This document shows positions 5,485-29,774 of a stretch of DNA of 30,766 nucleotides, in pieces. The notes beneath the pieces are model-generated. The model did no database searches and was not told the origin of the DNA. It saw only the letters and a program-made list of their open reading frames with translations. Source of the stretch: a virus; IMG/VR virus record IMGVR_UViG_3300045977_000383, positions 1 through 30,766 of that record; one strand, given 5' to 3'. The position numbers and the translations under genes are program-made. How positions within the stretch are numbered: position 1 is the stretch's first letter; the number at the start of each line of letters is the position of its first letter.

Positions 5485-5871
5485 TCAGCAGCTCACGCCG
5501 GCCGGAGCCTTGACCTCGATCTCTTCCGGCTTCGAGTACTGCTTGAGGAGCTTCCCGAAGGCGGCCGGCGCCCAGGCCGGCACGAAGAGGGACCAGGGCA
5601 GCTTCTTGACGGCCGTGATGCAGCGCTCGGTGCGATTCGCCCAGTGGCTCTTGATGTAGTCCGGCGCGTCCGGGAAGCTGGGGACCAGGCCCCGCTCGAA
5701 CGCAACCAGGATCTCCCCGAAATAGACGTGACCGAAGGCCTTCGGAAGATCCTCCGGGGTTTTTGCGGTCGCGAGGAGGTAGAAGTCGACGCAGTGCGCC
5801 ATCCAGAGCTTCGATTCCTTGTCCTGGCTGAAGATCAGCCGCTTGGGCTGGGGGATTTCCAGCGCCACCAT
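5485..5871 (-). CDS. possible HicB-like antitoxin/regulator
   Basis: 128 residues; ATG at 5871 (complement) with GGAGGTGGGTC directly upstream. The N-terminal 45 residues (LIFSQDKESKLWMAHCVDF and TAKTPEDLPKAFGHVYFG) match the HicB partial RNase-H-like pattern: a strand with W-x-A-x-C, then TPED and a helix. The rest (residues 50-128) is helical with no clear HTH. It is first in a two-gene unit with the HicA-like gene, behind a good promoter with an inverted repeat in the leader, an arrangement typical of autoregulated antitoxin-toxin pairs. The family call rests on pattern only. Confidence 0.6.
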   Translation of the reverse strand: MVALEIPQPKRLIFSQDKESKLWMAHCVDFYLLATAKTPEDLPKAFGHVYFGEILVAFERGLVPSFPDAPDYIKSHWANRTERCITAVKKLPWSLFVPAWAPAAFGKLLKQYSKPEEIEVKAPAGVSC

Positions 5872-5906
5872 GACCCACCTCCGAACGACGCTCGACTTGG
5901 ATCCCT

Positions 5907-5945
5907 CCTGGCGGCGTCAGTTCACGCGTCTCTCCGGCCGCCAGG
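5907..5945. repeat. inverted repeat in leader of the HicB-like gene
   Basis: CCTGGCGGC (5907-5915) and GCCGCCAGG (5937-5945) are perfect 9-bp arms separated by 21 bases. They lie between the promoter at 5956-5984 and the start codon at 5871, so they could be an operator for the gene product or a hairpin in the leader RNA. Confidence 0.5.
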
Positions 5946-5955
5946 TCGGACGACA

Positions 5956-5984
5956 TACCTAGCATAGCATCAGATCGGCGTCAA
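5956..5984 (-). promoter_or_regulatory. sigma70-type promoter for the HicB/HicA-like pair
   Basis: On the minus strand TTGACG (5984-5979) is followed after exactly 17 bases by TAGGTA (5961-5956). The -35 box matches the consensus at five of six positions. The inferred message starts near 5949 and has a leader of about 78 bases before ATG 5871, containing the inverted repeat 5907-5945. The remaining gap to the integrase stop (5985-6054) shows only short GC dyads. Confidence 0.6.
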
Positions 5985-6054
5985 CCGAGAAAACCTTGAA
6001 CACCGTCCGGGCCCGGTGGACACCCCTGGAACGAGCCCCCAAGGGGAGGCGGCG

Positions 6055-6993
6055 TTATGGGGCGCCCGCTCTCGGGTGGGCCCGCCGGTAGACCTCCTTC
6101 AGCCGCTCCATGGCCGTGTGCGTGTAGATCCGCGTCGTCTCGATGAACTCATGGCCGAGCAGGTCCTGGATCTGGTCGAGGGTGGCCCCGCGCTCTAGCA
6201 GGTGGGTAGCGAAGGAGTGGCGCAGCATGTGGGCGTGGACGTCCAGGCCGATCATCGCGCCCGCCTTCTCGACGACCTCCTGGATGGAATCCCGGGAGAG
6301 CCTGGTGCCGCGCTCCGAGACGAGCAGGGCCTCCTCGTAGGGGCGGCCGTTCGTCGTCATAAATTCGGCGCGCTGCGGCAGGTAGGCACGGATGGCGGCG
6401 ATCGCGGCGCCGCCGATGGGGACGATGCGCTCCTTCCTCCCCTTGCCGAAGAGCAGGACCTGACCGGCGTCGAGCGAGATGTGCTTCAAGTTGAGGCCGT
6501 GAAGCTCGGCCAGGCGGCAGCCGGTCCCGTAGAGCACCTCGAGGATGACCACGTTCCTCGACGCCAAGCTGGTCTTCCGCCCGGACACCTTGGGCGCGGC
6601 CGCGATCAGGGCCTCGACTTGGGGCAAGAGCAGGAACTCCGGCAGCCGGCGCTCGGCCTTGATGCGCCCGAGATCTTCAAACGGGTTGTCTCGGAGCTTC
6701 TTTCGCCCGCGCGCCCACCGATGGAACTGGCGGCACGAAGACACGCGGCGCTGGATGGTTCGGCCTGCGACCTCGAGCTGGCGCAGCTGCAGGATCCAAG
6801 CCTCGACGTCGGCGAGCTCGGCGTTCTCGATGGGGACCTGGCGGACGTCCAGGAAGAGGAGCCAGCCGTCGAGGTCAGTGGTGTAGGCTCGGATCGTGGA
6901 TAGGGGATGATTGAGGGCCGCGAGACTCGCGGTCCACTCCCGCTTCAGCACTTCCCCGGTCGTGACGGACCCGGTTCCCGATCGAGGTTCCAA
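6055..6993 (-). CDS. int: tyrosine integrase/recombinase (XerC/XerD type)
   Basis: 312 residues if started at TTG 6993 (GGAG 8 bases upstream); a GTG at codon 15 is an alternative. It has the SAM-like core-binding domain (residues about 15-105) and a complete catalytic domain: R160 (GTGCRLAEL), K184 (GKGRKERIVP), H255 and R258 (HMLRHSFATH), H281 (LLGHEFIETT) and the nucleophile Y290 (IYTH). It is expected to carry out strand exchange between phage and host attachment sites. Length and motifs are close to XerC/XerD. It is transcribed away from the repeat-rich region 6994-7495, where the attachment site is likely to be. No excisionase is certain; small HTH-type genes in the window are candidates. 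Confidence 0.95.
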   Translation of the reverse strand: MEPRSGTGSVTTGEVLKREWTASLAALNHPLSTIRAYTTDLDGWLLFLDVRQVPIENAELADVEAWILQLRQLEVAGRTIQRRVSSCRQFHRWARGRKKLRDNPFEDLGRIKAERRLPEFLLLPQVEALIAAAPKVSGRKTSLASRNVVILEVLYGTGCRLAELHGLNLKHISLDAGQVLLFGKGRKERIVPIGGAAIAAIRAYLPQRAEFMTTNGRPYEEALLVSERGTRLSRDSIQEVVEKAGAMIGLDVHAHMLRHSFATHLLERGATLDQIQDLLGHEFIETTRIYTHTAMERLKEVYRRAHPRAGAP

Positions 6994-7015
6994 CCCGGCG
7001 CTCCATAGCGCCGGG
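6994..7015. repeat. 9-bp hairpin at the integrase start
   Basis: CCCGGCGCT (6994-7002) and AGCGCCGGG (7007-7015) are perfect arms around a 4-base loop, directly against the proposed TTG start of the integrase. On the integrase message the hairpin includes the GGAG ribosome site, so it could hold down integrase translation. It could also be a protein-binding dyad. Confidence 0.5.
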
Positions 7016-7074
7016 AGACAGCCTCTCCCCGCCCCCTACACTCCTCCCAACCTGCCTCCGCGGCGGTCCTTAAC

Positions 7075-7124
7075 TCCCCAACTGCCCCAAGACCGTATTC
7101 CCTCCGCGGGGTGCCCCGATCGCA
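7075..7124. repeat. imperfect direct repeat, copy A
   Basis: Three 11-base words, TCCCCAACTGC (7075-7085), CCTCCGCGGGG (7101-7111) and CCCCGATCGCA (7114-7124), occur in the same order and nearly the same spacing at 7539-7588. The sequence between the words differs, so this is an old or selectively conserved duplication. Confidence 0.6.
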
Positions 7125-7188
7125 GATACTGGACGTTCGCCACCGTTGAAAAATCGCACAAAAAAAACCGCGATTCGTCGGATTCTAG

Positions 7189-7217
7189 TTGAAACGTTTC
7201 GGTGCGTAGAGTAGTCT
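7189..7217 (+). promoter_or_regulatory. possible promoter for the early block
   Basis: TTGAAA (7189-7194), 17 bases, TAGTCT (7212-7217). The -35 box is good and the -10 box is weak. The palindrome GAAACGTTTC (7191-7200) overlaps the -35 box and could be an operator. The predicted start, about 7224, would place the 13-bp inverted repeat at the very 5' end of the message. Confidence 0.35.
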
Positions 7218-7225
7218 TTGCATCC

Positions 7226-7292
7226 AGATGGGCAAGAGAATCGAACAAGCGAGCTTCGCGGGCTGCGCCGCCCTACGTGCTCTTGCCCATCT
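7226..7292. repeat. 13-bp perfect inverted repeat with 41-base loop
   Basis: AGATGGGCAAGAG (7226-7238) and CTCTTGCCCATCT (7280-7292) are exact complements. The loop contains further self-complementary GC pieces (GCGGGCTGCGCCGC). As RNA this makes a long stem; as DNA the two arms could be paired binding sites, for example integrase arm sites. Confidence 0.65.
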
Positions 7293-7390
7293 AGCGGACC
7301 ACGTCGACGGCAGGGGCGGCGCACACCTCGAGGCTCGCGCAACGGGCGGCGGCTACTTCCGGTCCTCCAGGCTCACTTCTCTCTGACGCC

Positions 7391-7422
7391 AACCCCCCGT
7401 AGCAGATCTTCTACGGGGAGTT
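7391..7422. other. attP: candidate attP core (recombinase-type dyad)
   Basis: AACCCCCCGTAG (7391-7402) and CTACGGGGAGTT (7411-7422) form 12-bp arms that match at 11 of 12 positions, around the 8-base spacer CAGATCTT. Tyrosine recombinases of the XerC/D type use core sites with inverted arms of about 11-13 bp and a 6-8 bp spacer, so the geometry fits. It lies about 400 bases upstream of the integrase start. No second copy (attB or a prophage junction) is in the window, so this is an inference from shape and position. Confidence 0.45.
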
Positions 7423-7471
7423 CGACGGGAAGAGGAAGAAGCGAGTCCTGGTGAAGGTGATCGGAGAGTAG

Positions 7472-7493
7472 CCGCCTCCCAGACGGGAGGCGG
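7472..7493 (+). promoter_or_regulatory. hairpin that buries the ribosome site of gene 7496
   Basis: CCGCCTCCC (7472-7480), loop AGAC, GGGAGGCGG (7485-7493): a perfect 9-bp stem. The ribosome site GGAGG of ATG 7496 lies inside the right arm, so the folded message could not be translated. It could be opened by a ribosome reading the coding-like piece ending at 7471, by a protein or by RNA, or it may act as a terminator. Confidence 0.5.
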
Positions 7494-7495
7494 TC

Positions 7496-7945
7496 ATGGC
7501 GTCCAGAGACGGGGCGAGAGAGGGCGGCAACCGAGACATCCCCAACTGCGGGGCTGCCGAGTTCCCCTCCGCGGGGACCCCGATCGCACGGGAAGGCACC
7601 CCGACATCTTCAACCAGCGCCACCGGAGAGAGGCCGGAAGCCCCCTGCCCCGCGCAGGGCATCATGTTCGGCCGCTGCTGCGTCTGCGGGACGCAGCTGG
7701 AGTCCACGCCCGTCGCGCTCGGTGACGACGCCAACGGCGGCGTGAGCCACGGCTACTGCCCGCCCTGCCAGGCCGAGGCGCTCAAGGAAGTCGGTGACGT
7801 CCGCTACACCGACCACGACGACCAGCTTCCCTCGACGCTCTGGGACATCGCCCGGACGGCCTCCGAGCAGTTCAGCCTGATCCCCTGGGCGACGGTCGCC
7901 CTCTTCATCCCCTGGGTGCTCCTGCAGATCGGGGGCGGACGGTGA
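7496..7945 (+). CDS. zinc-knuckle protein with C-terminal membrane segment
   Basis: 149 residues from ATG 7496 (GGAGG 5 bases upstream), or 93 residues from ATG 7664. The first 55 residues are low-complexity (Gly/Pro/Ser/Thr) and contain repeat copy B, so the later start may give the true protein. From residue 57 there is a cysteine pair CCVCG, then SHGYCPPCQAE, a four-Cys zinc knuckle. The C-terminus (about residues 126-146, FSLIPWATVALFIPWVLLQI) is a membrane helix. Its stop overlaps the next start (GTGA). First gene of the long rightward early block. Function unknown. Confidence 0.65.
   Translation: MASRDGAREGGNRDIPNCGAAEFPSAGTPIAREGTPTSSTSATGERPEAPCPAQGIMFGRCCVCGTQLESTPVALGDDANGGVSHGYCPPCQAEALKEVGDVRYTDHDDQLPSTLWDIARTASEQFSLIPWATVALFIPWVLLQIGGGR
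7539..7588. repeat. imperfect direct repeat, copy B
   Basis: Contains TCCCCAACTGC (7539-7549), CCTCCGCGGGG (7566-7576) and CCCCGATCGCA (7578-7588), matching copy A at 7075-7124. It falls in the low-complexity N-terminal region of gene 7496. Confidence 0.6.
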
Positions 7946-8232
7946 GCGCCCACACGCCCGGCCCCTGGATCTGGACCGACGATCCGAACGACGGCTGCTG
8001 CTGGACGCACAACGTCCAGACGCAGGCGCGCAACGCCGACCTCCCCGAGTACCCGCTCGCCAAGGTGGCGGACGTCTCTGGGGAAGCCAACGCCCGCCTG
8101 ATCGCCGCCGCGCCGGAACTTCTGGCCGCCGCCGAGGCCCTCCTGGCGGTGCTCGAATCCGACAAGCCCGTCACCAGCCGGGAAGCCTACGTCGCCCTGA
8201 AGGACGCCGTGGAGAAGGCGGTGCGGTCGTGA
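7942..8232 (+). CDS. conserved phage hypothetical protein (HTPGPW family type)
   Basis: 96 residues, GTG start overlapping the previous stop. It begins HTPGPW and has NARLIAAAPELLAAAEALL in the middle, a well-known pattern in small early proteins of many tailed phages, whose function is unknown. Helical C-terminal half. It is translationally coupled on both sides. Confidence 0.8.
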   Translation: MSAHTPGPWIWTDDPNDGCCWTHNVQTQARNADLPEYPLAKVADVSGEANARLIAAAPELLAAAEALLAVLESDKPVTSREAYVALKDAVEKAVRS

Positions 8233-8519
8233 TGGACGAGATCCGCCAAGCCTTCTCGCTCTGGCCTCTCGTCGTCGCGATCGCCGACGCCGAGGACCGC
8301 CGCCTCAACCCTCCCGACGACGTCGATCCCGCGATGGGCGACTGCCTCCACTGCGCGGCCACCGGCCAGGTTCTCGACTCCGAGCGCGCGGGGAAGCTCG
8401 TTGAGTGCGGCTCCTGCGGCGGGACCGGCCAGGTGGAGCTCGACCGCGACGAGATCGCGGCCTCCGAGAGCGAGCACGACCGGGACGCGGCCAGGGACAT
8501 GGAGGGCTTCGACGACTGA
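8232..8519 (+). CDS. DnaJ-type zinc-finger-like small protein
   Basis: 95 residues; ATG 8232 overlaps the stop of the previous gene (TGATG). Two knuckles, CLHCAATGQV and CGSCGGTGQV, copy the CxxCxGxG-type repeats of the DnaJ cysteine-rich domain, separated by 16 residues. There is no J domain. The C-terminus is acidic. Likely binds one zinc ion; partner unknown. Confidence 0.75.
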   Translation: MDEIRQAFSLWPLVVAIADAEDRRLNPPDDVDPAMGDCLHCAATGQVLDSERAGKLVECGSCGGTGQVELDRDEIAASESEHDRDAARDMEGFDD

Positions 8520-8560
8520 CGTTTTCCTCCCTCTCTCGAGGCTGGGGAGAGGACGCATCC

Positions 8561-8597
8561 GGGCGCCCAGCGCGGGCCGAGTAGGAGCTGGGCGCCC
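8561..8597. terminator. 11-bp hairpin after the first small-gene cluster
   Basis: GGGCGCCCAGC (8561-8571) and GCTGGGCGCCC (8587-8597) are perfect arms with a 15-base loop, in the 100-base gap after 8519. No T-run follows. It ends 22 bases before ATG 8620, so it may reduce read-through or protect the message. Confidence 0.5.
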
Positions 8598-8619
8598 CAG
8601 TGTGGAAAGGAGCAAGACG

Positions 8620-9204
8620 ATGGAAGCGATCAAGCAGACCCCGGCGCCCCTGACGCTCGTCCCGGCGACCCCGACGCTCGACGCGATGGTCGAGCAGTAC
8701 ACGGAGGACCAGGAGCGCGAGCGGACCGCCCGCGTGAACGTGTTCGCGGAGTGCATCAAGGACGGCGCCGTCATGGTGTCGACGGAGTCCCAGGCCAGCG
8801 AGATCGCGCGGCTCATGAACCGCGCGGCCGGCGACCTCGAGGACGCGAAGGCCATCGCGGCGGGAATCATCCGGCGCGCCGAGCAGCGGGTGGAGTCGCT
8901 CGACTTCATCTTCAGCACGCCGCTCGAGATCTGGACGAGCGCCCGCATCGCGGGCCAGAAGCGCCGCTCGATCATCCTGGACGGCGGGCAGCTGTCCCTC
9001 CGCAAGGTGCCCCAGTCGACGAAGACCGTCGACCCCGAGGCACTCCTCGCCTGGTGCCAGAAGCACCTCCCCGCCGCGGTGGAGCTGGTCCCGAAGGTGA
9101 AGTCCGATGTCGTGAAGGCTCACGAGGAGAAGTCGGGCCTGATCGCCGACGGCCGCCAGGTCACCCCCGAGCACGACAGCTTCAAGGTCTCGGTCCCCAA
9201 GTAG
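8620..9204 (+). CDS. Gam/Gp157-like protein (host-nuclease inhibitor type)
   Basis: 194 residues; ATG 8620 follows AAAGGAG by 7 bases. The middle (residues about 60-95) is a helix with AAGDLEDAKAIAAGIIRRAE. The C-terminal half has the pattern of the Gam and siphovirus Gp157 families: a strand pair GGQLSLRKVP, then DPEALLAWCQKHLP, lysine-rich VKSDVVKAHEE, and the closing DSFKVSVP. Gam proteins shield DNA ends from RecBCD-type nucleases. It is directly upstream of a recombination ATPase and a single-strand-binding protein, the usual company. The choice between Gam and Gp157 cannot be made by eye. Confidence 0.7.
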   Translation: MEAIKQTPAPLTLVPATPTLDAMVEQYTEDQERERTARVNVFAECIKDGAVMVSTESQASEIARLMNRAAGDLEDAKAIAAGIIRRAEQRVESLDFIFSTPLEIWTSARIAGQKRRSIILDGGQLSLRKVPQSTKTVDPEALLAWCQKHLPAAVELVPKVKSDVVKAHEEKSGLIADGRQVTPEHDSFKVSVPK

Positions 9205-9216
9205 GGGCGCACATCC

Positions 9217-9244
9217 GGGCGGCCCCGCTTCGGCCGGGCCGCCC
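9217..9244 (+). terminator. GC hairpin capped by a UUCG tetraloop
   Basis: GGGCGGCCC (9217-9225) pairs with GGGCCGCCC (9236-9244); after one C-C mismatch a GC pair closes the very stable loop C(TTCG)G at 9228-9233. It lies 13 bases after the stop of 8620-9204 and 34 bases before the next ATG. With no T-run it may stabilise or partly attenuate the message rather than end it. Confidence 0.5.
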
Positions 9245-9277
9245 CCGTGTGTGAGCGAAGGAAGAAAGGAGACGGGC

Positions 9278-10207
9278 ATGAGCAAGGTTCCGGTGGATCA
9301 CTCGGCGGTCTCGAGCCCTCCTAAGAAGGAGGGCGACGGCGGCTTCCTGGGTGCGATGACGGAGACGCTCAAGAAGGAAGGCGTCGACGTTGCGCCCGCC
9401 GTCGCGGCGCACGCGCCCGCGAAGGGCGTCCTGGCGAACATCCGCAAGGGACGGAAGAACTCGCCCCCGAGGATCGTCCTGGTCGGCACCGAGGGCATCG
9501 GCAAGTCGACGTGGGCAGCGAAAGCGCCCTCGCCCATCATCATCCCGACCGAGGACGGCCTCGACCATATCGACTGCGAGAAGTTCACCTGGGAGGACGG
9601 CCGCCGCAAGAAGGCCAACACCCTGCAGGAGGTCCTCGAGGTCCTCACGGGTCTGGCCAGCGAGCCGCACACCTACCAGACGCTCGCCATCGACTCGGTC
9701 GACTGGCTCGAGAAGCTGATCCTGGCGAACGTCTGTCGCAAGATGGCCAAGAAGAACATCGAGGACATCGGCTACGCGAAGGGCTACATCTACGCCCTCG
9801 ACGACTGGCGCGAGGTCCTCGACCTCCTCACGCGCTGCCGGACGCGCGGGATGGCGATCATCCTGATCGCCCACGCCAAGGTCGAGCGCTTCGAGGACCC
9901 CGAGAACCCGGCCTACGACCGGTACACCCCGCGCCTCCACAAGCACGCCCAGGCGCTCCTGACGGAGTGGGCCGACGCCGTCCTCTTCGCCACGCGCCGC
10001 ATGACGACGAAGCGCGAGGACAAGTCGGACGACACCTCGCGGCCCCTCGCCATCCCCGTCGGGGCGAACGGCGGCGATCGCATCATCCGCACGGTCGGCG
10101 GTCCCGCGTGCATCGCCAAGAACCGCTACGACCTCCCCCCGGAGATCCCGATGGACTGGAACGCGTTCCAGGCCGGCTTGGCCGCCTTCATGTCGAAGAC
10201 GGCCTGA
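9278..10207 (+). CDS. RecA-fold phage ATPase (AAA_24, Sak4-type recombination protein)
   Basis: 309 residues; ATG 9278 follows AAAGGAG by 6 bases. Walker A is GTEGIGKST (residues 70-78), Walker B is TLAIDSVDW with D139, and GMAIILIAHAK is the sensor strand. The layout and length match the AAA_24 / Sak4 family of phage annealing or recombination ATPases, which pair single strands together with a phage single-strand-binding protein. Exactly such a protein (DUF669 type) follows 30 bases downstream. The first 60 residues are an unstructured, lysine-rich lead. Function in recombination-linked replication is well supported by context. Confidence 0.85.
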   Translation: MSKVPVDHSAVSSPPKKEGDGGFLGAMTETLKKEGVDVAPAVAAHAPAKGVLANIRKGRKNSPPRIVLVGTEGIGKSTWAAKAPSPIIIPTEDGLDHIDCEKFTWEDGRRKKANTLQEVLEVLTGLASEPHTYQTLAIDSVDWLEKLILANVCRKMAKKNIEDIGYAKGYIYALDDWREVLDLLTRCRTRGMAIILIAHAKVERFEDPENPAYDRYTPRLHKHAQALLTEWADAVLFATRRMTTKREDKSDDTSRPLAIPVGANGGDRIIRTVGGPACIAKNRYDLPPEIPMDWNAFQAGLAAFMSKTA

Positions 10208-10237
10208 ACCCCGAAGGTGAATGAAAGGAGATAGGAC

Positions 10238-10747
10238 ATGGCGGACCTCGGAGAGACGTTCGACGCGAGCAACGTGGAGCCCAACGCGCCCCGCGACCTG
10301 AAGCCGGAAGGCTGGTACCCCGGCATCATCGTCGAGAGCGAGAAGAAGCCCACCAAGGCGAACGACGGCAGCGAGTACCTCAACCTGCAGCTGCAGCACA
10401 TCGCGCCCAGCCCGTTCGTGGGCCAGCCCGAGTGGGACATCCTCAACCTCTGGAACAAGAAGAGCGAGCAGGCCGTGACGATCGCGCGCGGCACTCTCTC
10501 GGCGATCTGCCGGGCGGTGAACATCCTCACGCCCAAGGACTCCTCCCAGCTGCACAACCTCCCCCTGCTTTTCAAGCTGGTGGTCGAGGACGGCACCGAC
10601 GGCGTCAAGCGCAACAAGGTGAAGGGCTACAAGCCCTTCGACGGCCAGGCGCCCGCGGCGCCCGCGTCGGCGAAGACCGCGGCTCCCACCCAGGCGCCCG
10701 CGGTCACCGGCGGGCCCGCCCCGTGGGGCCAGAAGAAGACCGGCTAG
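10238..10747 (+). CDS. DUF669 single-stranded-DNA-binding protein
   Basis: 169 residues; ATG 10238 with AAAGGAG 7 bases upstream. The N-terminus (EPNAPRDLKPEGWYPGIIVE, residues about 14-33) and the segment GSEYLNLQLQHI are typical of DUF669, a phage SSB-like OB-fold family. The middle has a helix TIARGTLSAICRAV. The tail is Pro/Ala-rich and disordered, ending WGQKKTG, unlike the acidic tips of cellular SSB. It pairs with the Sak4-type ATPase upstream and the helicase downstream. Confidence 0.85.
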   Translation: MADLGETFDASNVEPNAPRDLKPEGWYPGIIVESEKKPTKANDGSEYLNLQLQHIAPSPFVGQPEWDILNLWNKKSEQAVTIARGTLSAICRAVNILTPKDSSQLHNLPLLFKLVVEDGTDGVKRNKVKGYKPFDGQAPAAPASAKTAAPTQAPAVTGGPAPWGQKKTG

Positions 10748-10761
10748 AAGCTGCGCCCCCA

Positions 10762-10783
10762 GGGAGCCCCGCGAGGGGCTCCC
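10762..10783 (+). terminator. perfect 9-bp hairpin with GCGA tetraloop
   Basis: GGGAGCCCC (10762-10770), loop GCGA, GGGGCTCCC (10775-10783). It lies between the SSB-like gene and the helicase and ends 5 bases before ATG 10789, so it overlaps where the helicase ribosome site should be. It may act as a translational brake or attenuator for the helicase. Confidence 0.5.
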
Positions 10784-10788
10784 TCCAG

Positions 10789-12405
10789 ATGAAGCTTCGA
10801 CCCTACCAGCGCGAGTGCGTGGACGCCATCTGGCGCCACGTCCAGGCGAGCCCCGAGCCCGCCGTCGCGGTCCTCCCCACCGGGGCGGGGAAGGGCGTGA
10901 TCCTCGCTCAGCTGGCCAAGGACGTCGTCGCCTGGAAGGGGCGCATGGTGGTCCTCGCCCACGTAAAAGAGCTGCTCGTCCAGACGTTCGACAACATCGA
11001 GCGCTTGGCCCCCCAGGTTCACGCGGGCGTCTACTCGGCGGGCTTGGGCAGCCGCGAGCTTGCCGCGGCGGTCACCGTCGCCGGCATCCAGAGCATCTAC
11101 AAGCGCGCGGAGGACCTCGGCGCCGTCGACGTCATCGCGATCGACGAGGCGCACCGGATCCCGCCCGAGGGTGAGGGCCAGTACCGGACCTTCCTCGAGG
11201 GCATGCGGGCGCTCAACCCCAACGTCCGCCTGGTCGGCCTGACGGCGACGCCGTACCGGACCGGGACGGGCCTCATCTACGGGAAGGATCAGCTCTTCGC
11301 AAAGCCCTGCTTCGAGATCGGGGTGCGCCAGCTGATCATGGAAGGCTTCCTCTCGCCGCTCAAGAGCAAGGCTGGGAACGAGCAGGCGGACGTTTCTGGC
11401 GTCGAGGTCCGCGGAGGAGAGTTCGTCCAGTCGAGCCTTCAGGCGGTCCTCATGGCCGACGAGATGAAGGTCGCCGGCGCCTGCGTGGACATCGGCGCGA
11501 AGACCCAGGATCGAAGGTCCGTGATCGTCTTCGCCGCCGGCGTCGAGCACGCCCAGATGATCGCCCGCTTTCTGCGCGAGCTCGAGGTCGGCCAGGTGCG
11601 GGAGGTCTACGGCGACACCCCGGCGGACGAGCGTGCCCAGACGATCGCCGACTTCCGCGCGGGCCGGGTGAAGTACCTGGTCAACGTGGAGGTCCTCACG
11701 ACGGGCTTCGACGCTCCCGGCGTCGACGCCGTGGTGATGATGCGGCCGACGATGTCGGCGGGCCTGCACTACCAGATGATCGGGCGAGGCCTGCGCCTGG
11801 CCGAGGGCAAGACCGACTGCAGGATCCTGGACTTCTCGGGCAACTTGCTTCGCCACGGCCCGATCGACCGGCTCCTCATCGGTCCGAATGGACCTCCCCA
11901 GGGGGGCGCCGGCGGGGGGCTCTGGAAGAAGTGCCCCTCCTGCGAGGAGGTCATGCCGCGCAGCTGCGGGGTGTGCCCGGACTGCGGTGCCAAGATCGAG
12001 CGCGAGGACCGCGGCGTCGGCCACGGGGCGGCTGCCGGCGATCGCGCGCCCCTCTCGGAGCCCGAACCCGTCCAGTCGATCTACTACAGCTACCACGTCA
12101 AGAAGGACGCGCCGGAAGGCCACCCGCCGACCCTCCGCGTCACCTACGACTGCGGGCTCCTGCAGCAGCCCTCCGAGTGGGTCTGCATCGAGCACACCGG
12201 CTTCGCACGCAGCAAGGCCGAGGCCTGGTGGCGCGCGCGCAGCGACCAGCCGGTTCCCAAGACGGTGGCCGAGGCCCTCGAGGTCATCGCCCGGCACGGC
12301 ATCAAGGAGCCCAAACGGATCGCGCTTCAGGCCGACGGGAAGTACCTCCGGGTCGCGAAGCACCTGGACTTCACCTTCAAGGCGCCGGGGGCGACGGTCG
12401 CATGA
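10789..12405 (+). CDS. DEAD/DEAH superfamily-2 helicase with zinc insertion
   Basis: 538 residues. Motifs in order: Q-type start RPYQREC (4-10), motif I LPTGAGKG (29-36), motif II DEAH (119-122), motif III TATPYR (152-157), and motif VI QMIGRGLR (about 329-336). From about residue 383 a four-cysteine knuckle (CPSCEE, CPDCG) and an accessory C-terminal domain follow. It is expected to unwind or translocate on DNA using ATP. Such helicases regularly sit beside DUF669 and AAA_24 genes in phages. The start has no clear ribosome site; a hairpin ends 5 bases before it. The stop overlaps the next ATG (ATGA). Confidence 0.92.
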   Translation: MKLRPYQRECVDAIWRHVQASPEPAVAVLPTGAGKGVILAQLAKDVVAWKGRMVVLAHVKELLVQTFDNIERLAPQVHAGVYSAGLGSRELAAAVTVAGIQSIYKRAEDLGAVDVIAIDEAHRIPPEGEGQYRTFLEGMRALNPNVRLVGLTATPYRTGTGLIYGKDQLFAKPCFEIGVRQLIMEGFLSPLKSKAGNEQADVSGVEVRGGEFVQSSLQAVLMADEMKVAGACVDIGAKTQDRRSVIVFAAGVEHAQMIARFLRELEVGQVREVYGDTPADERAQTIADFRAGRVKYLVNVEVLTTGFDAPGVDAVVMMRPTMSAGLHYQMIGRGLRLAEGKTDCRILDFSGNLLRHGPIDRLLIGPNGPPQGGAGGGLWKKCPSCEEVMPRSCGVCPDCGAKIEREDRGVGHGAAAGDRAPLSEPEPVQSIYYSYHVKKDAPEGHPPTLRVTYDCGLLQQPSEWVCIEHTGFARSKAEAWWRARSDQPVPKTVAEALEVIARHGIKEPKRIALQADGKYLRVAKHLDFTFKAPGATVA

Positions 12406-12582: not shown

Positions 12583-14025
12583 ATGGAAGCGGTAGCGGAA
12601 AAAGTCGAGTTCAAGGCAGTCCCCCTGAAGGACCTCGAGGAGGCGCCGTACAACCCCAGGCGGACGTTCGACGAGGAGAGCCTCAAGGACCTCGTCGAGA
12701 GCATCCGCACGAAGGGCGTCCTCAATCCCATCCTGGCTCGCCCGGTGAACGGGCACCTGGAGATCGTCGGCGGGGCCCGTCGGTTCCGCGCCGCGCGCGC
12801 CGCGGGGCTGAAGGAGATCCCCTGCCAGATCCGCGACCTGACCGACGACGAGGCCCTCGAGGTGGCCGTCATCGACAACCTGCAGCGCGCCGACGTGGCC
12901 CCCGCCGAGGAGGCCCGGGGCTTCCAGGAGCTGCTCCGGCGCGGCTACAAGGCCGAGGACCTGGCGAAGAAGGTCAGCAAGAGCATCCGCTACATCTACG
13001 GCCGGATCGAGCTGCTGAAGCTCGCCGCGCCGGTGCTGAAGGCGCTCGAGGACGAGCGCATCACCCCGAGCCACGCCCAGCTGATCGCCACCCTCGACGA
13101 CGAGGACGACCAGAAGAAGGTCCTCGACAAGGCCTTCGTCGAGGTCTACGCGGACCAGGTCCCCGACTCCGACAGCGACGTGATCAGCCCGACCTTCCAG
13201 ATCAAGGACGAGGGCGAGGTCAGGACCCTGGTCAGCATCCGCGACTTCAAGCAGATCGTCAGCGCCCAGAAGCTGGGCTCCGAGCTGATCGAGCAGCTCA
13301 ACGCGCTGAAGATCGCCGGCCACAAGGCCGCCCTGATCAGCGGCATGGACTGGAACCAGAGCAAACAGATCGTCTCCCGCCGGCGCTGGAAGGCCCAGGG
13401 CGCCAAGCCCTGCAAGTTTCCCGCGAAGGGGGTCCTGGTCGACGGGAAGGACCGCGGCAAGGTCCTCAGCATCTGCCTGACCACCAGCTGCAAGAAGCAC
13501 TTCGCCACCAGCCCGGTCGGTCCGACGGTCACACCCGAAGAGCGGCAGCGCCAGCAGGAGGCGGCCGAGCGGAAGGCCAAGCAGGAGCAGGCGCGACACG
13601 AGCTGGCCAGGAAGGTCAAGGTCGAGGTCTTCCGCCAGGTCTGCAACAAGGTGCGCGAGCTGCCCAAGAAGGCGCTCAACGCTCTGCTCGCCGACAGGCT
13701 CTGGGACATCAACCAGAGCGAATTCATCGACGGCTTCAACCCGGCCATCCTGCGGGCCAGCCGCCAGGGCCGGCTGAAGATCGTGGAGAGCCTGAAGCCC
13801 ATCGAGTTCGCCCAGACGGCGATCGCCGCTCTGTGCTGGGACGACATCGAGGGCCGGGACTGGTACAAGCCCACGCACCGCATCGCCGACTTCGCCACCG
13901 ACCTCAAGGTCGACCTCAAGGCGATCGAGAAGGGCGTGCGCGGCAAGTTCGAGGCCGAGCTGCAGGAGAAGCGGGCGGCCGAGCAGAAGGAAAAGAAGCC
14001 GGCCAGGAAGGCCGGCAAGCAGTAG
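12583..14025 (+). CDS. ParB/Spo0J-like DNA-binding protein
   Basis: 480 residues; AAAGGAG 6 bases before ATG 12583. The N-terminal ParB/sulfiredoxin domain is clear: NPRRTFDE (24-31), LVESIRTKGVLNPILARPV (37-55), GGARRFRAARAAGL (63-76, the CTP/phosphate loop region), and VIDNLQRADVAPAEEARGF (96-113). A helix-turn-helix region follows (AEDLAKKVSKSIRYIYGRIE, about 124-143). The C-terminal 250 residues have cysteines (ICLTTSC) and end in a long Lys/Ala-rich helix. There is no ParA gene, so the role may be gene regulation or DNA organisation rather than partition. A dyad-rich gap follows directly and could be its target. Confidence 0.85.
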   Translation: MEAVAEKVEFKAVPLKDLEEAPYNPRRTFDEESLKDLVESIRTKGVLNPILARPVNGHLEIVGGARRFRAARAAGLKEIPCQIRDLTDDEALEVAVIDNLQRADVAPAEEARGFQELLRRGYKAEDLAKKVSKSIRYIYGRIELLKLAAPVLKALEDERITPSHAQLIATLDDEDDQKKVLDKAFVEVYADQVPDSDSDVISPTFQIKDEGEVRTLVSIRDFKQIVSAQKLGSELIEQLNALKIAGHKAALISGMDWNQSKQIVSRRRWKAQGAKPCKFPAKGVLVDGKDRGKVLSICLTTSCKKHFATSPVGPTVTPEERQRQQEAAERKAKQEQARHELARKVKVEVFRQVCNKVRELPKKALNALLADRLWDINQSEFIDGFNPAILRASRQGRLKIVESLKPIEFAQTAIAALCWDDIEGRDWYKPTHRIADFATDLKVDLKAIEKGVRGKFEAELQEKRAAEQKEKKPARKAGKQ

Positions 14026-14242: not shown

Positions 14243-14563
14243 ATGGAACGGGTGGACGAGAGGGTCGAAGATCAGGCGCCGCCGGCGCCGAGGTCGTACT
14301 CCTGCCCGGAGTGCCGGCAGGAATTCCCCAGCCCCGAGGATCTCGGCGTCCACCTCGAGCGCCACTCCCCGACGGATCTCCCCGTCCCGCTAAACGCCAG
14401 GAAGACCCCCGACGCCCACCCCTGCCCGAAGGGCTGCGGCCGGATCTTCCCGACCACCCGCTACGGCAACAGCAAGGAGATGGACATCCACGCGACCAAC
14501 TGCGACGGCTCGCCGCCCATTGTCGGCGCGGGGGCCACGAACGAAGAGACGGGGAAGCCCTAG
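14243..14563 (+). CDS. two-finger C2H2-type zinc-finger protein
   Basis: 106 residues; GGAG 6-9 bases before ATG 14243. First finger: YSCPECRQEF (residues about 19-28) with histidines in LGVHLERH. Second finger: CPKGCGRIFP followed by EMDIHATNC, an irregular C2HC form. Zinc fingers of this kind in phages are mostly of unknown role; DNA or RNA binding is likely. The next gene has a further finger of the same type. Confidence 0.8.
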   Translation: MERVDERVEDQAPPAPRSYSCPECRQEFPSPEDLGVHLERHSPTDLPVPLNARKTPDAHPCPKGCGRIFPTTRYGNSKEMDIHATNCDGSPPIVGAGATNEETGKP

Positions 14564-15582: not shown

Positions 15583-15848
15583 GACGCCCCACCGACCAGG
15601 TCCTGCGCGGCCTCAAGGGGATGGCGGACGCCTTCGACGTGGCCTTGGACCGGCCGCCCTTCTCGGACCTCCACCCTCAGACGAAGCGCGACGTCCGCGC
15701 TGCCGTGCGCTGGTGCTGGCGCATGAACAACGTGCGCGAGGATCGTGCCGAAGTCCGACGCCTCCGAGTACTCCGCGGCGGCTGGTCGCCCGAGTTGCCC
15801 CTACCCCCGTACGCGCCGGCGCGCAGAAAGAAGCCCGCCCGTGGGTGA
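15579..15848 (+). CDS. small basic hypothetical protein
   Basis: 89 residues, GTG start overlapping the previous stop by 4 bases and its own stop overlapping the next start by 8 bases. Arg-rich throughout; a helix at about residues 33-60 (TKRDVRAAVRWCWRMNNVRE) and a Pro/Arg-rich tail. No family recognised. Real coding is supported by overlaps and codon use. Confidence 0.6.
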   Translation: MRRPTDQVLRGLKGMADAFDVALDRPPFSDLHPQTKRDVRAAVRWCWRMNNVREDRAEVRRLRVLRGGWSPELPLPPYAPARRKKPARG

Positions 15849-16653
15849 CCGGACGTCGATCGCCTGGACCGACCACACCTTCAACCCCTGGTGGGGCTGC
15901 GAGAAAGTCTCGGAGGCCTGCAAGTTCTGCTACGCGGAGCGCGAGGCCCACCGCTTCGGCCACCAGGTCTGGGGCAAGGGCGCGGACCGCCGCACCTTCA
16001 GCACGAAGCACTGGATGCGGCCGCACGCCTGGGACATCGCGGCCAAGGCCGCCGGCGTCCGCCGTCGCGTCTTCTGCGCGAGCATGGCCGACGTCTTCGA
16101 AGCCCGCGAGGACCTCGACGGCGAGCGGCGCAAGCTCTGGGACCTGATCGAGAGCACGTCGGGGCTCGACTGGCTGCTCCTGACGAAGCGGCCCGAGAAC
16201 ATCGGGCGGATGGTCCCGGCCGACTGGCTCCGGCAGCCGCGGCCGAACGTCTGGTACGGCACCACGGTCGAGAACCAGGCGACGGCCGACAAGCGGATCC
16301 CCGAGCTGCTTATGCTGCCGGGCCCGGTCCGGTTCCTGAGCTGCGAGCCGCTCCTCGAGCCCATCAACCTATTCGAGTACCTGACGCCCGTGCGGCCGCG
16401 GCGGATCGACTGGGTGATCGCCGGCGGCGAGAGCGGGCCCCGGCCCCGACTCCTCGACCAGGCCTGGATCGAGGACCTCATGGAGCAGGCGCGCGCGGGC
16501 GGCGCCGCCATGTTCGTCAAGCAGCTCGGCACCGCCTACGCCAGGAAGTACCAGCTCACCGACACGAAAGCCGCGGCGGCTTGGGAATGGCCCGGCCACC
16601 TCCGCGTGCAGGAATTCCCCAAGCCCGAGACGGGAAAGGAGATCGCGCGATGA
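15841..16653 (+). CDS. DUF5131 / phage Gp37-Gp68 family protein (three-cysteine, radical-SAM-like)
   Basis: 270 residues from GTG 15841. It opens with TSIAWTDHTFNPWWGC (residues 5-20), the hallmark of the family, and carries C20-x6-C27-x2-C30 (SEACKFCYAE), a likely iron-sulfur site. Further family segments are VFCASMADVFE, WLLLTKRPEN, VWYGTTVENQ, FLSCEPLLEP and WVIAGGESGP, so the protein looks complete. Known members are common in phages and have a TIM-barrel, radical-SAM-like look, but the reaction is not known to me. It lies directly after the nucleotide fusion protein, so a role in nucleotide or DNA modification is possible. Confidence 0.85.
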   Translation: MGDRTSIAWTDHTFNPWWGCEKVSEACKFCYAEREAHRFGHQVWGKGADRRTFSTKHWMRPHAWDIAAKAAGVRRRVFCASMADVFEAREDLDGERRKLWDLIESTSGLDWLLLTKRPENIGRMVPADWLRQPRPNVWYGTTVENQATADKRIPELLMLPGPVRFLSCEPLLEPINLFEYLTPVRPRRIDWVIAGGESGPRPRLLDQAWIEDLMEQARAGGAAMFVKQLGTAYARKYQLTDTKAAAAWEWPGHLRVQEFPKPETGKEIAR

Positions 16654-18141: not shown

Positions 18142-18675
18142 GTGGACTACAAGAAATGCGGGAAGTGCGGACGAACCCTTCCGACGTCGGACTTCCACGT
18201 CCGGCGCCGGAAGGGATGCCGCGACTCCCTCCAGTCGTGGTGCAAGGCTTGCCAACTGGAACGACACAACGCCTGGAAGGAAAAGAATCGCGAACGGTAC
18301 TTGGCCTCACGTCGTCGGCGTCGGAGGGACCGTCTCGAGGCGGGTAGCCAGGAGGTTCGGCGGCAGATCCTGTGCAAGTACGGCCTCACACTGGAGCAGT
18401 ACAGCGAGATGCTCGCCAAGCAGGGCGGCTGCTGCGCCATCTGCGGCCTCCCCGAGCGGGCCAGAAATCAGCACGGTCAACTTTCTCTCTCCGTCGACCA
18501 CAGCCACACCAGCGGGCGCGTACGCGGCCTTCTTTGCCGTTCCTGCAACACGATCCTGGGGATGGCGAAGGAGAACGCCGGGGTCCTCGAGAGGGCCATC
18601 GACTACATCGTCCGGGACGTCGCCGAGGACAACCGCGCTTACTGGGCGGCCGAGGAGGCGCGGGCCCATGCCTAA
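18142..18675 (+). CDS. endonuclease VII-type HNH (recombination) nuclease
   Basis: 177 residues, GTG start. An N-terminal zinc ribbon (CGKCGRTLP, WCKACQ; C6, C9, C34, C37) is followed by a very basic helix and the endonuclease VII domain: YGLTLEQYSEMLAKQGGCCA (80-99), CAICG, SVDHSHTSGRVRGLLC (117-132) and CRSCNTILGMAKEN. C98, C101, C132, C135 bind zinc, and D119-H120 with N136 form the active site as in T4 gp49. It resolves branched DNA. Its end overlaps the start of the primase-helicase by 8 bases. Confidence 0.9.
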   Translation: MDYKKCGKCGRTLPTSDFHVRRRKGCRDSLQSWCKACQLERHNAWKEKNRERYLASRRRRRRDRLEAGSQEVRRQILCKYGLTLEQYSEMLAKQGGCCAICGLPERARNQHGQLSLSVDHSHTSGRVRGLLCRSCNTILGMAKENAGVLERAIDYIVRDVAEDNRAYWAAEEARAHA

Positions 18676-20587
18676 GCCGACCGACGCCGAATTGGAGTCC
18701 TTCATGGAGTTCCTCATGCAGTCCCCCAAGGGGCGCATGACGAGGAAGGACGACTCCGTTCACGGTCGCTGCCCGACGGAGCACGAAGATCGCAACCCCT
18801 CGTTCAGCTTCAAGAAGTCGATCGACGCCTGGGCGTGTTCGTGCGGCGGTGGCAAGGGCTCCGAGTTGCGAACCCGCCTCAACTGGACGTGGCGCGGCGC
18901 TCCCGCGTCCTCGCCGGCGCCGAGGCTCGCCCCCGCGGCCGCGCCGGCGACGATCGAGTGGGCGGTCAAGAACCTCAAGGGCGAGATCGTCTGCACCCAC
19001 ATCCGGCGCAACCTGCCGGACGGCACCAAGCGCTACAGCTGGAGCGTCCCAGGCAAGGACGGCGAGGGCCTCCACGGGATGCGCGCGGCCGACCTCCCGC
19101 TCTACGGCACCGAGAAGCTTTCCAACGGCGACCCAAAGGTGCCGGTCGTCCTCTGCGAAGGTGAAAAATCGGCCGACGCGCTCCAGGAGCTGGCCGGCGA
19201 CCTGGTCGTCACGCTCGCCACGGTGACGGGCGCCTCGGGAACGCCGTCCCCCGCAACCCTCGAGGTCCTGAAGGGCCGCGCGGAGATCCACCTCTGGCCC
19301 GACCACGACGACATCGGCCGGATGCACATGGAGCGCATCGCCCAATCCCTGAAAGGGATGGGAGTCCCCTCAAGAACGATCGCGTGGAAGAACGCCCACA
19401 ACGTCGGCGACGACGCCGCCGATTTCGTATCACGTGGAGCCTCTGTAAAAGATCTCAACCGGCTGCTGGGGAAGCTCGACTGGCGGGAGATCCTGAACGC
19501 CCAGCCGGTCCCCGCGACGGACCTGGCCAGCCTGGTGGGGAAGCCCGTCCCCTACATCATCAAGCCGATCGCGGTCCGCGGCGCGCTCACCCAGGTCCAG
19601 GGGATCCCGAAGGGCGGAAAGTCGGCCTTCACGGTGTTCGTGTCGCTCTGCGCCGCGGCGGGCGAGTGGCCCCAGCAGGAGATCATGGGGCCCGTCAATC
19701 CTGGCCAACTCAAGGTCCTCTACCTCGCCTGGGAGGACCCGGACCTCATGATGGCCCAGCGCCTCAGCCTGTATGGACAAGGACTGGGTTTCACAAAGTC
19801 ATTCCTCCCGCCCAACCTCACCTTCCTCTTCGCCCCGGAGATTTTCGTCGAACGCGGCGACCATGCGGAGGCGCTGCGCCAGGCCATCACCGAGATCAAG
19901 CCCGACATCGTCGTCTTCGACACCCTCTCGCACGTCCACCTCTGCGACGAGAACGCCGCCTCGGAAATGAAGATCCCGATGCGGGCCCTCGACCGCATCG
20001 CCCGCGAGACCCAGACGTCGGTCATCTACCTCCACCACACCAGGAAGGGCGCCGACGGCCACGCGACCGAGAAGGGCCGCGGCTCCCAGTCGATCGCGGC
20101 GGCCTGGCACGTCCTCGTCGATTGGGGACTGCGCGAGGAAGGCTCGAACGTCAACCCCGTGAAGATCCTCTCCAAGTACGAGCACAAGACCCAGAACTGG
20201 GACGTCCGCTACGTGCCGGTCTATTCAGGCGAGCCCGTCCCCCATGGCCAGGAGCCCGAAGTCATCCAGGTGAAGTGGGAGATCGAGCGCCACGGAGGCG
20301 GAGCAGCTGCTGCCGCCAAGCCCCAGAAGGTTTCGCGCGCGGACGTGAAGCGCACCCGCATCATCGGCACTGTCCGCGAGCTCTGCCTGGCCTCCCTCGA
20401 CGGCTGCACGACCGCCAAGGACGTGGCGTCCGCGTGCGGTCTGGGCCTCGATTCCCGGTCCATCAAACGCCACCTCACCGACCTCTGCACCGATGGGGCG
20501 CTGGAGTTTCAGGAGGGTTTACCCACCAAAGGTGGCCGCTCTCCCGACACCTACCGGCCCGGAAAGGGGAATCTCAGTGACCTCTAA
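18668..20587 (+). CDS. bifunctional primase-helicase (Zn finger, TOPRIM, RecA-like ATPase)
   Basis: 639 residues from ATG 18668. Order: zinc finger HGRCPTEHED and WACSCGGG (C35, H39, C57, C59); TOPRIM with VVLCEGEKSADAL (E164) and LWPDHDDIGR (D212, D214); hexameric RecA-like ATPase with Walker A GIPKGGKSA (K318), Walker B DIVVFDTLS (D418) and SVIYLHHTRKG; and a C-terminal winged-helix region (about residues 560-620, CTTAKDVASACGLGLD, RHLTDLC). It would lay primers and unwind DNA at the fork. The iteron-type repeats start 2 bases after its stop, and the winged helix could bind them. Complete, no broken motif seen. Confidence 0.93.
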   Translation: MPKPTDAELESFMEFLMQSPKGRMTRKDDSVHGRCPTEHEDRNPSFSFKKSIDAWACSCGGGKGSELRTRLNWTWRGAPASSPAPRLAPAAAPATIEWAVKNLKGEIVCTHIRRNLPDGTKRYSWSVPGKDGEGLHGMRAADLPLYGTEKLSNGDPKVPVVLCEGEKSADALQELAGDLVVTLATVTGASGTPSPATLEVLKGRAEIHLWPDHDDIGRMHMERIAQSLKGMGVPSRTIAWKNAHNVGDDAADFVSRGASVKDLNRLLGKLDWREILNAQPVPATDLASLVGKPVPYIIKPIAVRGALTQVQGIPKGGKSAFTVFVSLCAAAGEWPQQEIMGPVNPGQLKVLYLAWEDPDLMMAQRLSLYGQGLGFTKSFLPPNLTFLFAPEIFVERGDHAEALRQAITEIKPDIVVFDTLSHVHLCDENAASEMKIPMRALDRIARETQTSVIYLHHTRKGADGHATEKGRGSQSIAAAWHVLVDWGLREEGSNVNPVKILSKYEHKTQNWDVRYVPVYSGEPVPHGQEPEVIQVKWEIERHGGGAAAAAKPQKVSRADVKRTRIIGTVRELCLASLDGCTTAKDVASACGLGLDSRSIKRHLTDLCTDGALEFQEGLPTKGGRSPDTYRPGKGNLSDL

Positions 20588-20803
20588 CCCATCGGTCAAA
20601 CCCATCGGACATTCCAGCATCGGTCATTGTCCGATGGCCCTGGCGAGGCCATCGGACAAGGGGGGGGTACCCCCTAAAGGGGGTACCCCCTCCCCCCTTG
20701 TCCAATGGCTCGCCTCGCTGGGTTTTGTCTTCTGGTTTTTTGTCCGATGGGTGGCCCTGGTTTGCAGTCGCCTGCATGAACAGGCGCGAAGCAGGGGGGC
20801 GTC
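20588..20803. other. candidate phage replication origin with seven 10-bp iterons
   Basis: The motif CCATCGGWCA, or its complement, occurs at 20589-20598, 20602-20611 and 20617-20626 (first base G), all plus; 20628-20637 minus; 20649-20658 plus; 20699-20708 (one change, TGTCCAATGG) and 20741-20750 minus. A long hairpin lies between copies 5 and 6. T-rich pieces (GGTTTTGTCTTCTGGTTTTT, 20721-20740) sit next to the last copy and are the most AT-rich part locally. It follows the primase-helicase gene at once. Iterons, a hairpin and a T-rich element next to the replication initiator are the usual parts of an origin. Not proven. Confidence 0.7.
20642..20714. repeat. long inverted repeat (cruciform) inside the origin candidate
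   Basis: The inner arms are GGGGGTACCCCC-type: GGGGGTACCCCC (20663-20674), loop TAAA (20675-20678), GGGGGTACCCCC (20679-20690). The outer arms CCATCGGACAA (20649-20659) and TTGTCCAATGG (20698-20708) are iterons 5 and 6, with one mismatch. A 4-base C bulge lies between. GGCGAGGCC at 20642 continues the pairing with GGCTCGCC at 20707-20714. Confidence 0.8.
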
Positions 20804-24492: not shown

Positions 24493-25271
24493 GCCAGTGC
24501 AACCCGCCCGACTGCAGTCATCCGGATCACCAGGTCGTGGAGAAGCCGATCGACACGCCGACCGCGCAGCCCGTCCACGTTCCCACGTCGCAGACGTTCG
24601 TCGACGACCGCGGTCGCGCGGTGGACCCCGAAGAGGTCCGTCCCGTCAAGCCCATCGACCTCAACACGCCCGAGCAGCTCCTCAAGAAGGCCGAGGAGAA
24701 GCTCAAGGAGACGGAGGCCCGCGAGAAGGTCCTCGAGGCCAAGCTCGCCGAGGCCCAGACCGACGCGAAGCTGGCCGTGGAGATCGCGGCAGCCACGAAC
24801 CGGGATCTCCAGGCCCAGAAGAAGCGCAGCGCCGAGATCGCCGCCGAGCGTGAGACCTGGAAGGGCCGCGCCACCCGCGCGGAGGCCAAGCCCACCCCCG
24901 AGCACGTCGTGAACATCGTGGCGGAACGCGATCGCCTGCGCCAGGAGGTCGCCGCCAAGGACCGCAGGATCGCCGAGGCCGACAAGCGGGCCACGGCGGA
25001 CAGCCTGGCCGTCGAGCAGGCCAAGCGGATCGCCGCGGCGGCCGAGCAGCGCGAGGGGATGGTCCGCGGGACGATCGAGTCCATGCAGATCGCGCGCGAC
25101 GCGGCGCAGAAGCGCGAGGCCGCGGCGGTGAAGTACTCCAACGAGCTCGAGGAGAAGCTGAAGAAGGCCGAGGAGGACCTCCGTGTGGAGGTGGCCCTGC
25201 GTGTGCAGCGCGAGAAGAACGACAAGGCCAAGGCGGCCGCGCAGGCGGCGCCGGTGAAGAAGGGGGCGTAG
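24489..25271 (+). CDS. alanine/lysine-rich long coiled-coil protein
   Basis: 260 residues from ATG 24489. After a short Cys/His lead (CNPPDCSHPDH) and a Pro-rich linker, about residues 60-250 are one charged coiled coil (ex. EEKLKETEAREKVLEAKLAE). It resembles scaffold or structural-maintenance-type phage proteins only in this general way. Nothing else is recognised. It lies two genes before the packaging genes. Confidence 0.7.
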   Translation: MSQCNPPDCSHPDHQVVEKPIDTPTAQPVHVPTSQTFVDDRGRAVDPEEVRPVKPIDLNTPEQLLKKAEEKLKETEAREKVLEAKLAEAQTDAKLAVEIAAATNRDLQAQKKRSAEIAAERETWKGRATRAEAKPTPEHVVNIVAERDRLRQEVAAKDRRIAEADKRATADSLAVEQAKRIAAAAEQREGMVRGTIESMQIARDAAQKREAAAVKYSNELEEKLKKAEEDLRVEVALRVQREKNDKAKAAAQAAPVKKGA

Positions 25272-25273
25272 CC

Positions 25274-25849
25274 GTGCGGATCCTCATCGCCCTCTTCATC
25301 CCGACCGCGCTTCTGGGCCTGGGCTGCTCCTCGAGCGAGAAGCGGTCGAGCAAGTTCCCGCCCGGCGTGATGATCACCAGCCCGGCCGGTCGCGTCATCG
25401 AGTTCCACGACGCCGGCAGCCGGGCCCGCGGCGTCGACGTCGGCGGCCTCCTGGACGAGGCGGTCGCCCACGCGGAGATCCACCTGGCGAAGTACGGGAT
25501 CGGGCGAGACAAAGTCGCCCGCGCTCTGCCGATCATCCGCCTCCACGGCATCGACGACTGCGCTTTCCAGACGATCTCGTCGGAGACGGGCTGGGCCACC
25601 GGGCAGTACGACGAGCGCTACCGCTTCCTGGCCGTGTCGCTCTACAGCGTGCGGCGCATCGCGGCCGACGCGCCGTTCCCGCCCGAGGCCGTGCCCTGGA
25701 CCTGCCGACGACGGCAGCCGCCGTTCCCTGCGGAGGCCTTCTACGGAGTACTCGACAAGCCGTTCCCGGCGCTCGGCCACGAACTCGGGCACCACTTCTT
25801 CGGCGGCCGCTTCGAGCATGGGTGGACGCCGCCGCTCGTCGAGAAGTGA
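25274..25849 (+). CDS. lipoprotein with HExxH zinc-metallopeptidase motif
   Basis: 191 residues, GTG 25274 with AGGGGG 7 bases upstream. A lipoprotein signal (MRILIALFIPTALLGLGC) puts the acceptor cysteine at residue 18 (L-x-L-G-C). The active-site motif is GHELGHHFFGG at 168-178 (H169, E170, H173, with a later H182), the pattern of a zinc metallopeptidase. Residues 25-60 look like a strand-rich lead. Expected outside the cytoplasmic membrane, where it might cut cell-envelope peptide or a host surface protein. It has no usual phage neighbour. Ends close to the palindrome at 25853. Confidence 0.75.
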   Translation: MRILIALFIPTALLGLGCSSSEKRSSKFPPGVMITSPAGRVIEFHDAGSRARGVDVGGLLDEAVAHAEIHLAKYGIGRDKVARALPIIRLHGIDDCAFQTISSETGWATGQYDERYRFLAVSLYSVRRIAADAPFPPEAVPWTCRRRQPPFPAEAFYGVLDKPFPALGHELGHHFFGGRFEHGWTPPLVEK

Positions 25850-25852
25850 TCC

Positions 25853-25868
25853 GTGCAGACGTCTGCAG
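25853..25868. promoter_or_regulatory. second copy of the 15-bp palindrome, before the packaging genes
   Basis: GTGCAGACGTCTGCA (25853-25867) is identical to 1798-1812 and contains the perfect 14-bp palindrome TGCAGACGTCTGCA. It lies 3 bases after the metallopeptidase stop and about 37 bases before GTG 25905. The flanks do not pair as they do at 1790-1820, so the shared part is the palindrome itself. A protein operator is the simplest explanation. Confidence 0.55.
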
Positions 25869-25904
25869 AGGCTGGGTGGGATCGGGGAGAGGATTGGAGG
25901 TGAC

Positions 25905-26123
25905 GTGGGCAAGAAGTCGGAGAAGATCGTCGGGTGGAAGCGGATTGCCGCCGAGTTCGGCGTCAACGAGCGCACCCTGAAGGACTGGTTCCGCATTTCC
26001 GGGCTTCGGCTTCCGAAGCTCGGAAGGGGGCGACGAAGTCCTGTTTTCATCGTCGTGGGCCAACTCTATCGTTGTGTGCAGTTCGGCGTAAAAGCGGTCC
26101 TGGAGCACGCTAGCACCCCGTAA
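25905..26123 (+). CDS. small HTH protein, Nu1/excisionase-like
   Basis: 72 residues; GTG 25905 with GGAGG and a 4-base gap upstream. The sequence GWKRIAAEFGVNERTLKDWF (residues 10-29) followed by RLPKLGRGRRSP has the winged-HTH (MerR-like, HTH_17) look of phage small terminase DNA-recognition proteins and excisionases. It lies just upstream of the packaging genes, which favours a packaging or late-gene role. It could also be the missing excisionase. Coding is well supported by the ribosome site. Confidence 0.7.
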   Translation: MGKKSEKIVGWKRIAAEFGVNERTLKDWFRISGLRLPKLGRGRRSPVFIVVGQLYRCVQFGVKAVLEHASTP

Positions 26124-26144
26124 ACGCTCGGCGCTCGATGGGTG

Positions 26145-29693: not shown

Positions 29694-29774
29694 GTCGGCC
29701 GCGCGCGGGAGTGACGACCTGCGCGAGGCCTGGAACAGGTGCAGCGAAGGCGCGGCGGGCGTACCCCGCCTTAC

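Follow-up and report, generated by a model that had tools for sequence, protein, structure and literature searches.

A probable attP site carrying the 3' end of bacterial yjbQ at the centre of a long palindrome in a tailed phage

Related recombination sites

The overlap of a tyrosine-integrase attP with the 3' end of a protein gene, which is rebuilt upon integration, is a strategy stated for genomic islands (PMC12884075). In integrons and in CTXphi, Xer-related enzymes are known to recombine folded DNA strands (PMC4792948). The site considered here lies in a 30,766-nt stretch of viral DNA, analysed at its full length and called the window below.

With gene-rebuilding attP sites, this locus shares an intact adjacent integrase, imperfect inverted core arms around a short spacer within the 6-8 bp range, and a host gene end carried in frame with its stop. 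In sampled genomes, a host site identical across the overlap is found, with a gene end that would be restored in frame. The differences reside in the target, yjbQ, and in a 137-nt palindrome centred on the core. We judge the site to be a genuine attP of a known kind, new in its target gene and in its unusual extended palindrome; integration at yjbQ was not reported in the open-access literature searched.

Integron attC sites and their recombinase IntI provide another point of comparison. As with attC, a Xer-related recombinase is associated with a long imperfect hairpin whose unpaired bases lie mostly on one side (PMC4792948). However, the phage integrase reaches only 98 bits against the IntI family, far below the cut-off of 265, and one arm of the phage structure is a host gene end. 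In attC the crossover takes place near the stem base, whereas in the phage it would presumably occur at the apex.

The CTXphi attP, a substrate of host XerCD, is likewise a phage site foldable as a single strand and processed by Xer-type chemistry. Sites of that class serve elements with no integrase of their own, whereas the present phage encodes one (6055-6993); it also has the terminase, portal and head genes of a tailed double-stranded DNA phage, and its target would be yjbQ and not dif. The loxP site of phage P1, recombined by Cre, has inverted arms of similar length and an 8-bp spacer, but the phage enzyme is Xer-like and one of its core arms is the end of a host gene.

The core, the integrase and the yjbQ end

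The site and its immediate partners are the following:

6055..6993, minus strand: XerC/D-like tyrosine integrase, 312 aa, TTG start, Pfam PF00589 and PF02899
7391..7422, plus strand: probable attP core, two 12-bp inverted arms (11/12 pairing) around the 8-bp spacer CAGATCTT
7403..7471, plus strand: yjbQ 3' end, 22 codons and stop without a start, with C-terminal YjbQ matches and 68/68 genome hits
7472..7493, plus strand: hairpin CCGCCTCCC-agac-GGGAGGCGG, perfect 9-bp stem right after the yjbQ stop, terminator-like with no T tract

The core reads AACCCCCCGTAG-CAGATCTT-CTACGGGGAGTT, its spacer being cagatctt, and lies about 400 bp upstream of the integrase gene. The original prediction had described such arms and spacer in non-coding DNA beside a full-length integrase, with no second copy in the window. 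Its coordinates and pairing proved correct, the integrase is indeed intact, and a search of all 30,766 nt returned a single copy of the core. Extended through the spacer, the core forms a 2x16-nt near-palindrome with 88% complementarity. A structure as good arises in 0.47% of dinucleotide shuffles of the intergenic stretch 6994-7495, and the whole window holds five such structures against 0.93 expected, so that the shape by itself is only moderately significant.

Both Pfam tyrosine-integrase domains are present in the integrase, its catalytic motifs follow one another in the right order (R, K, HxxR, H, Y), and its closest solved relative is XerD (1a0p, E 1.8e-39). The XerC/D-type label given to the site at the outset holds for the enzyme family and fails at the level of the equivalogs, with 272 bits against a cut-off of 335 for XerC and 255 bits against 330 for XerD. 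These scores point to a Xer-related phage integrase and not to a Xer protein dedicated to chromosome dimers. No close relative was found in the collections searched, including viral contigs and 392 Planctomycetota genomes, and with no relative sharing the integrase there is no comparative attP. Most of these 392 genomes do give matches, at no more than 45% identity; these are probably host XerC/D proteins and are uninformative.

Two aspects had escaped the first reading of the sequence: the right half of the core is the 3' end of bacterial yjbQ, and the 32 bp of the site form only the tip of an inverted repeat 137 nt long. Read rightwards from the spacer, the tail comprises a coding part at 7403-7468 and a stop at 7469-7471. 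It aligns to positions 112-132 of the 132 of NCBIfam TIGR00149 (YjbQ; E 7e-4), weakly to the end of Pfam UPF0047, and to the last 22 residues of two solved proteins, TM0723 (1vmj, E 3.6e-7) and aq_2013 (E 2.3e-6). Judged by these alignments, the phage carries exactly the C-terminus of YjbQ together with its stop. The in-frame codon ahead of 7403 is TAG, so the gene is incomplete here and only its 3' end is carried, as expected of an integrase that rebuilds its target gene.

To the right of the site lie Sak4, helicase, ParB and terminase genes. A separate viral contig, 100% identical over 5718 bp (window 25049-30766), extends the phage by 4 kb with portal, minor head and protease-like genes. 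Several proteins encoded on the left have matches among PHROG families of unknown function; a response-regulator receiver domain (644-1054) and a family-2 glycosyltransferase (2010-2816), on the lysis and integrase side, make this side less certainly phage. The ParB-like gene (12583-14025) has N-terminal and HTH domains. Two further genes encode a small protein that matches a C2H2-type zinc finger (14243-14563) and a DUF5131 protein (15745-16653, phrog_2045).

Host matches and proposed integration

The 21-mer CAGATCTTCTACGGGGAGTTC occurs exactly in 68 stretches among 84,980 genomes. Each of them is an in-frame yjbQ 3' end, where the match is preceded by ...LDFGPWE or a closely similar sequence. 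Host homology starts at 7401-7403, the left edge of the spacer. Since every exact match falls at such an in-frame gene end, the site would be the attP core and the host yjbQ 3' end its attB. The original prediction had proposed an attP and suggested looking for the spacer and its flanking arms in host genomes; it is strengthened by the matches found there, all exact matches to spacer and right arm together falling at yjbQ 3' ends. Its refuting condition of a site unmatched in any host genome was thus not borne out.

The phylum genome searches were centred on two loci (L048 and L028), whose records supplied the phylum names. The best host tails belong to Planctomycetota and are identical to the phage tail at 62 of 69 nt, the differences being mostly at wobble positions; the exact host is absent from the searched collections, where no tail comes closer than 7 differences in 69. 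A degenerate tail motif preceded by the conserved yjbQ Trp codon is present in 28 of 199 Planctomycetota genomes, and with the first base of that codon excluded it is found in none of 392. The motif is thus practically absent outside yjbQ, and its presence beside an integrase is not due to chance. Sak4 has relatives in 41 of 372 Planctomycetota genomes, compared with a single one of 199 Acidobacteriota genomes. Tail identity and the distribution of Sak4 relatives together suggest that the host is probably an uncultured member of the Planctomycetota.

In our preferred reading, to which we assign a probability of about 0.9, a temperate tailed phage whose host probably belongs to the Planctomycetota has its attP core here, and its integrase recombines this core with the yjbQ 3' end of the host. 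The analysis shows the gene tail with its location and reading frame, the matches in hosts, the integrase and the surrounding phage genes; from these we infer that the integrase acts on this site, at which points it would cleave, and that yjbQ would be rebuilt in a lysogen. The two partners, attP and the yjbQ 3' end, would most likely exchange strands inside CAGATCTT; this presumed overlap and the right core arm are identical in both, the left arm being phage sequence. The phage copy would take the place of the final 22 codons of host yjbQ, leaving the gene intact at one junction, while the displaced host tail would remain at the other junction, beside the integrase. Carrying these codons next to its integrase, the phage could thus insert into the gene end and rebuild it. 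The hairpin at 7472-7493 could, by conjecture, end yjbQ transcription in the lysogen.

A displaced yjbQ tail, the sign of attL or attR, was found in none of the 392 Planctomycetota genomes, and no close integrase lies beside yjbQ in the 68 loci save one, where an integrase-like pair sits upstream of the gene and not downstream. As these searches yielded no lysogen with attL and attR, the crossover positions above are those suggested by comparison of phage and host sequences. In viral contigs, searches for the integrase, for the exact core and for a Gam-like neighbour produced no usable result; the single match there to a degenerate YjbQ tail was due to chance and lies inside a capsid-like protein. 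The YjbQ-like match in phage record MT835480 proved to be an entire yjbQ gene, and the scaffold is probably bacterial: the region 5866-11928 of MT835480.1, deposited as 'Bacteriophage sp.', holds it beside other bacterial-looking genes. Sak4-related prophages have other integrases, or none detectable nearby, and offer no comparative attP. Their strong inverted repeats are not homologous to the phage palindrome, and one beside an integrase (L124) lies inside an open frame. A related Planctomycetota prophage (L125, ~2160-2300) has a long imperfect palindrome of unrelated sequence about 1.4 kb upstream of Sak4.

For a phage known from metagenomic data, these results provide a probable host phylum and an integration site defined well enough to be tested. 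The same 21-base yjbQ core exists in many phyla, so the integrase could serve as an integration tool where few exist.

The long palindrome, rival readings and flanking signals

The core is the apex of an imperfect palindrome, or hairpin, of 137 nt (7344-7480), composed of two arms:

7344..7402, plus strand: left arm, imperfect inverted copy of the yjbQ tail and 9 nt, lacking some 11 bases relative to the right arm
7403..7480, plus strand: right arm, with the spacer (loop), the yjbQ tail, its stop and 9 nt

Folding z-scores for the two strands are -7.5 and -8.5 with RNA energies, the stability amounting to -80 and -87 kcal/mol, and -5.1 and -6.9 with DNA energies. The inverted alignment of the arms outside the core scores 46, whereas shuffles (n=5000) average 17.6 and never exceed 36. 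With a score of 60, the palindrome is the strongest such structure of the window, and none scoring at least 58 was found in 662 kb of comparison loci. At the 15 positions where the phage tail departs from the host consensus, the left arm has the phage base in 9 of the 11 that can be aligned, a count that is indicative only, as the choice of alignment favours agreement. This suggests that the left arm was copied from the phage's own tail or keeps pairing with it. Folded with 67 host yjbQ tails, the left arm reaches a mean of -54 kcal/mol, versus -80 with its own tail.

Most likely, the tail was duplicated in inverted orientation about the crossover, and the palindrome so formed then decayed. 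An involvement of the integrase in the origin of the left arm is a tentative proposal, somewhat short of even odds. A cut half-site could have closed into a hairpin, or an inverted exchange between two attP copies could have been helped by the palindromic AGATCT. The centre of the palindrome coincides with the presumed overlap and with the start of host homology, as would follow if integrase chemistry had made the left arm. Template switching would be a simpler route, but it leaves that coincidence unexplained. A palindrome made from an inverted target-gene end raises the question of whether it is an integrase scar, an insulator or a folded recombination substrate, and any function given to it is conjecture.

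Several other readings of the site itself have to be weighed against integration at yjbQ. The tail could be a relic of transduced or captured host DNA, the real attP being elsewhere; phages do capture host fragments and no junction has been seen, yet this fragment begins at the palindrome spacer beside an integrase, ends at about the gene stop and keeps 22 codons open with mostly wobble differences from hosts, which makes such an accident highly improbable. Even less probable is a site similar to loxP or dif, at which the recombinase would resolve dimers of a circular phage-plasmid with no integration. The 12-bp arms and 8-bp spacer do resemble loxP, the recombinase is closest to XerC and XerD, and a ParB-like gene is present; against this, dimer resolution gives no reason for one arm and the next 57 bases to be an in-frame host gene end with its stop, and no ParA Walker motif was found in the window, which is itself a fragment. 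We give the least credit to the possibility that an integrated prophage makes up the window, with the site as its attL or attR: some genes in the left part of the window are not phage hallmarks, but the 5' part of yjbQ is missing, and the integrase on the left with replication, terminase and head genes on the right indicate phage DNA on both sides.

For the long palindrome, an unlikely but serious alternative is a bidirectional RNA hairpin, foreign to recombination, that would insulate the integrase or the early genes from read-through. Its great stability on either strand, its place between divergent genes and the further hairpins adjoining it agree with this role; however, neither a T-tract terminator nor a sigma-70-like promoter was found, and an insulator need not be centred on the core. 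Much further from our expectations, the bulged 137-nt hairpin might be the working site itself, the integrase of a tailed phage joining a folded single attP strand to double-stranded yjbQ in an integron-like manner; we hold this very unlikely. Were it true, the end of the host gene, copied in inverted orientation, would have supplied the fold, and since the left arm pairs less well with host tails, folding could be favoured in the free phage relative to the prophage junction. A comparison with known RNA families gave only a chance sub-threshold match.

Additional repeats are found around the core:

7075..7124, plus strand: left copy of an imperfect 50-bp direct repeat located on both sides of the core, candidate arm site for the integrase or site for a regulator
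7539..7588, plus strand: right copy of the same repeat, candidate integrase arm site or regulator site
7226..7292, plus strand: inverted repeat with perfect 13-bp arms around a 41-nt loop, in the same non-coding stretch

The best 50-mer of the direct repeat is identical at 34 of 50 positions, the shuffle maximum being 31 (n=300). The inverted repeat at 7226-7292 and a hairpin at 7249-7338 (z -5.8) are mutually exclusive; located between the integrase and the early genes, they possibly belong to a regulatory RNA leader. On another aspect, nested inverted repeats at 20602-20693, with perfect 12-bp arms and more, lie just past a primase/helicase-like gene (18668-20587). This cluster is the second strongest palindrome of the window and could represent terminators or a replication origin.
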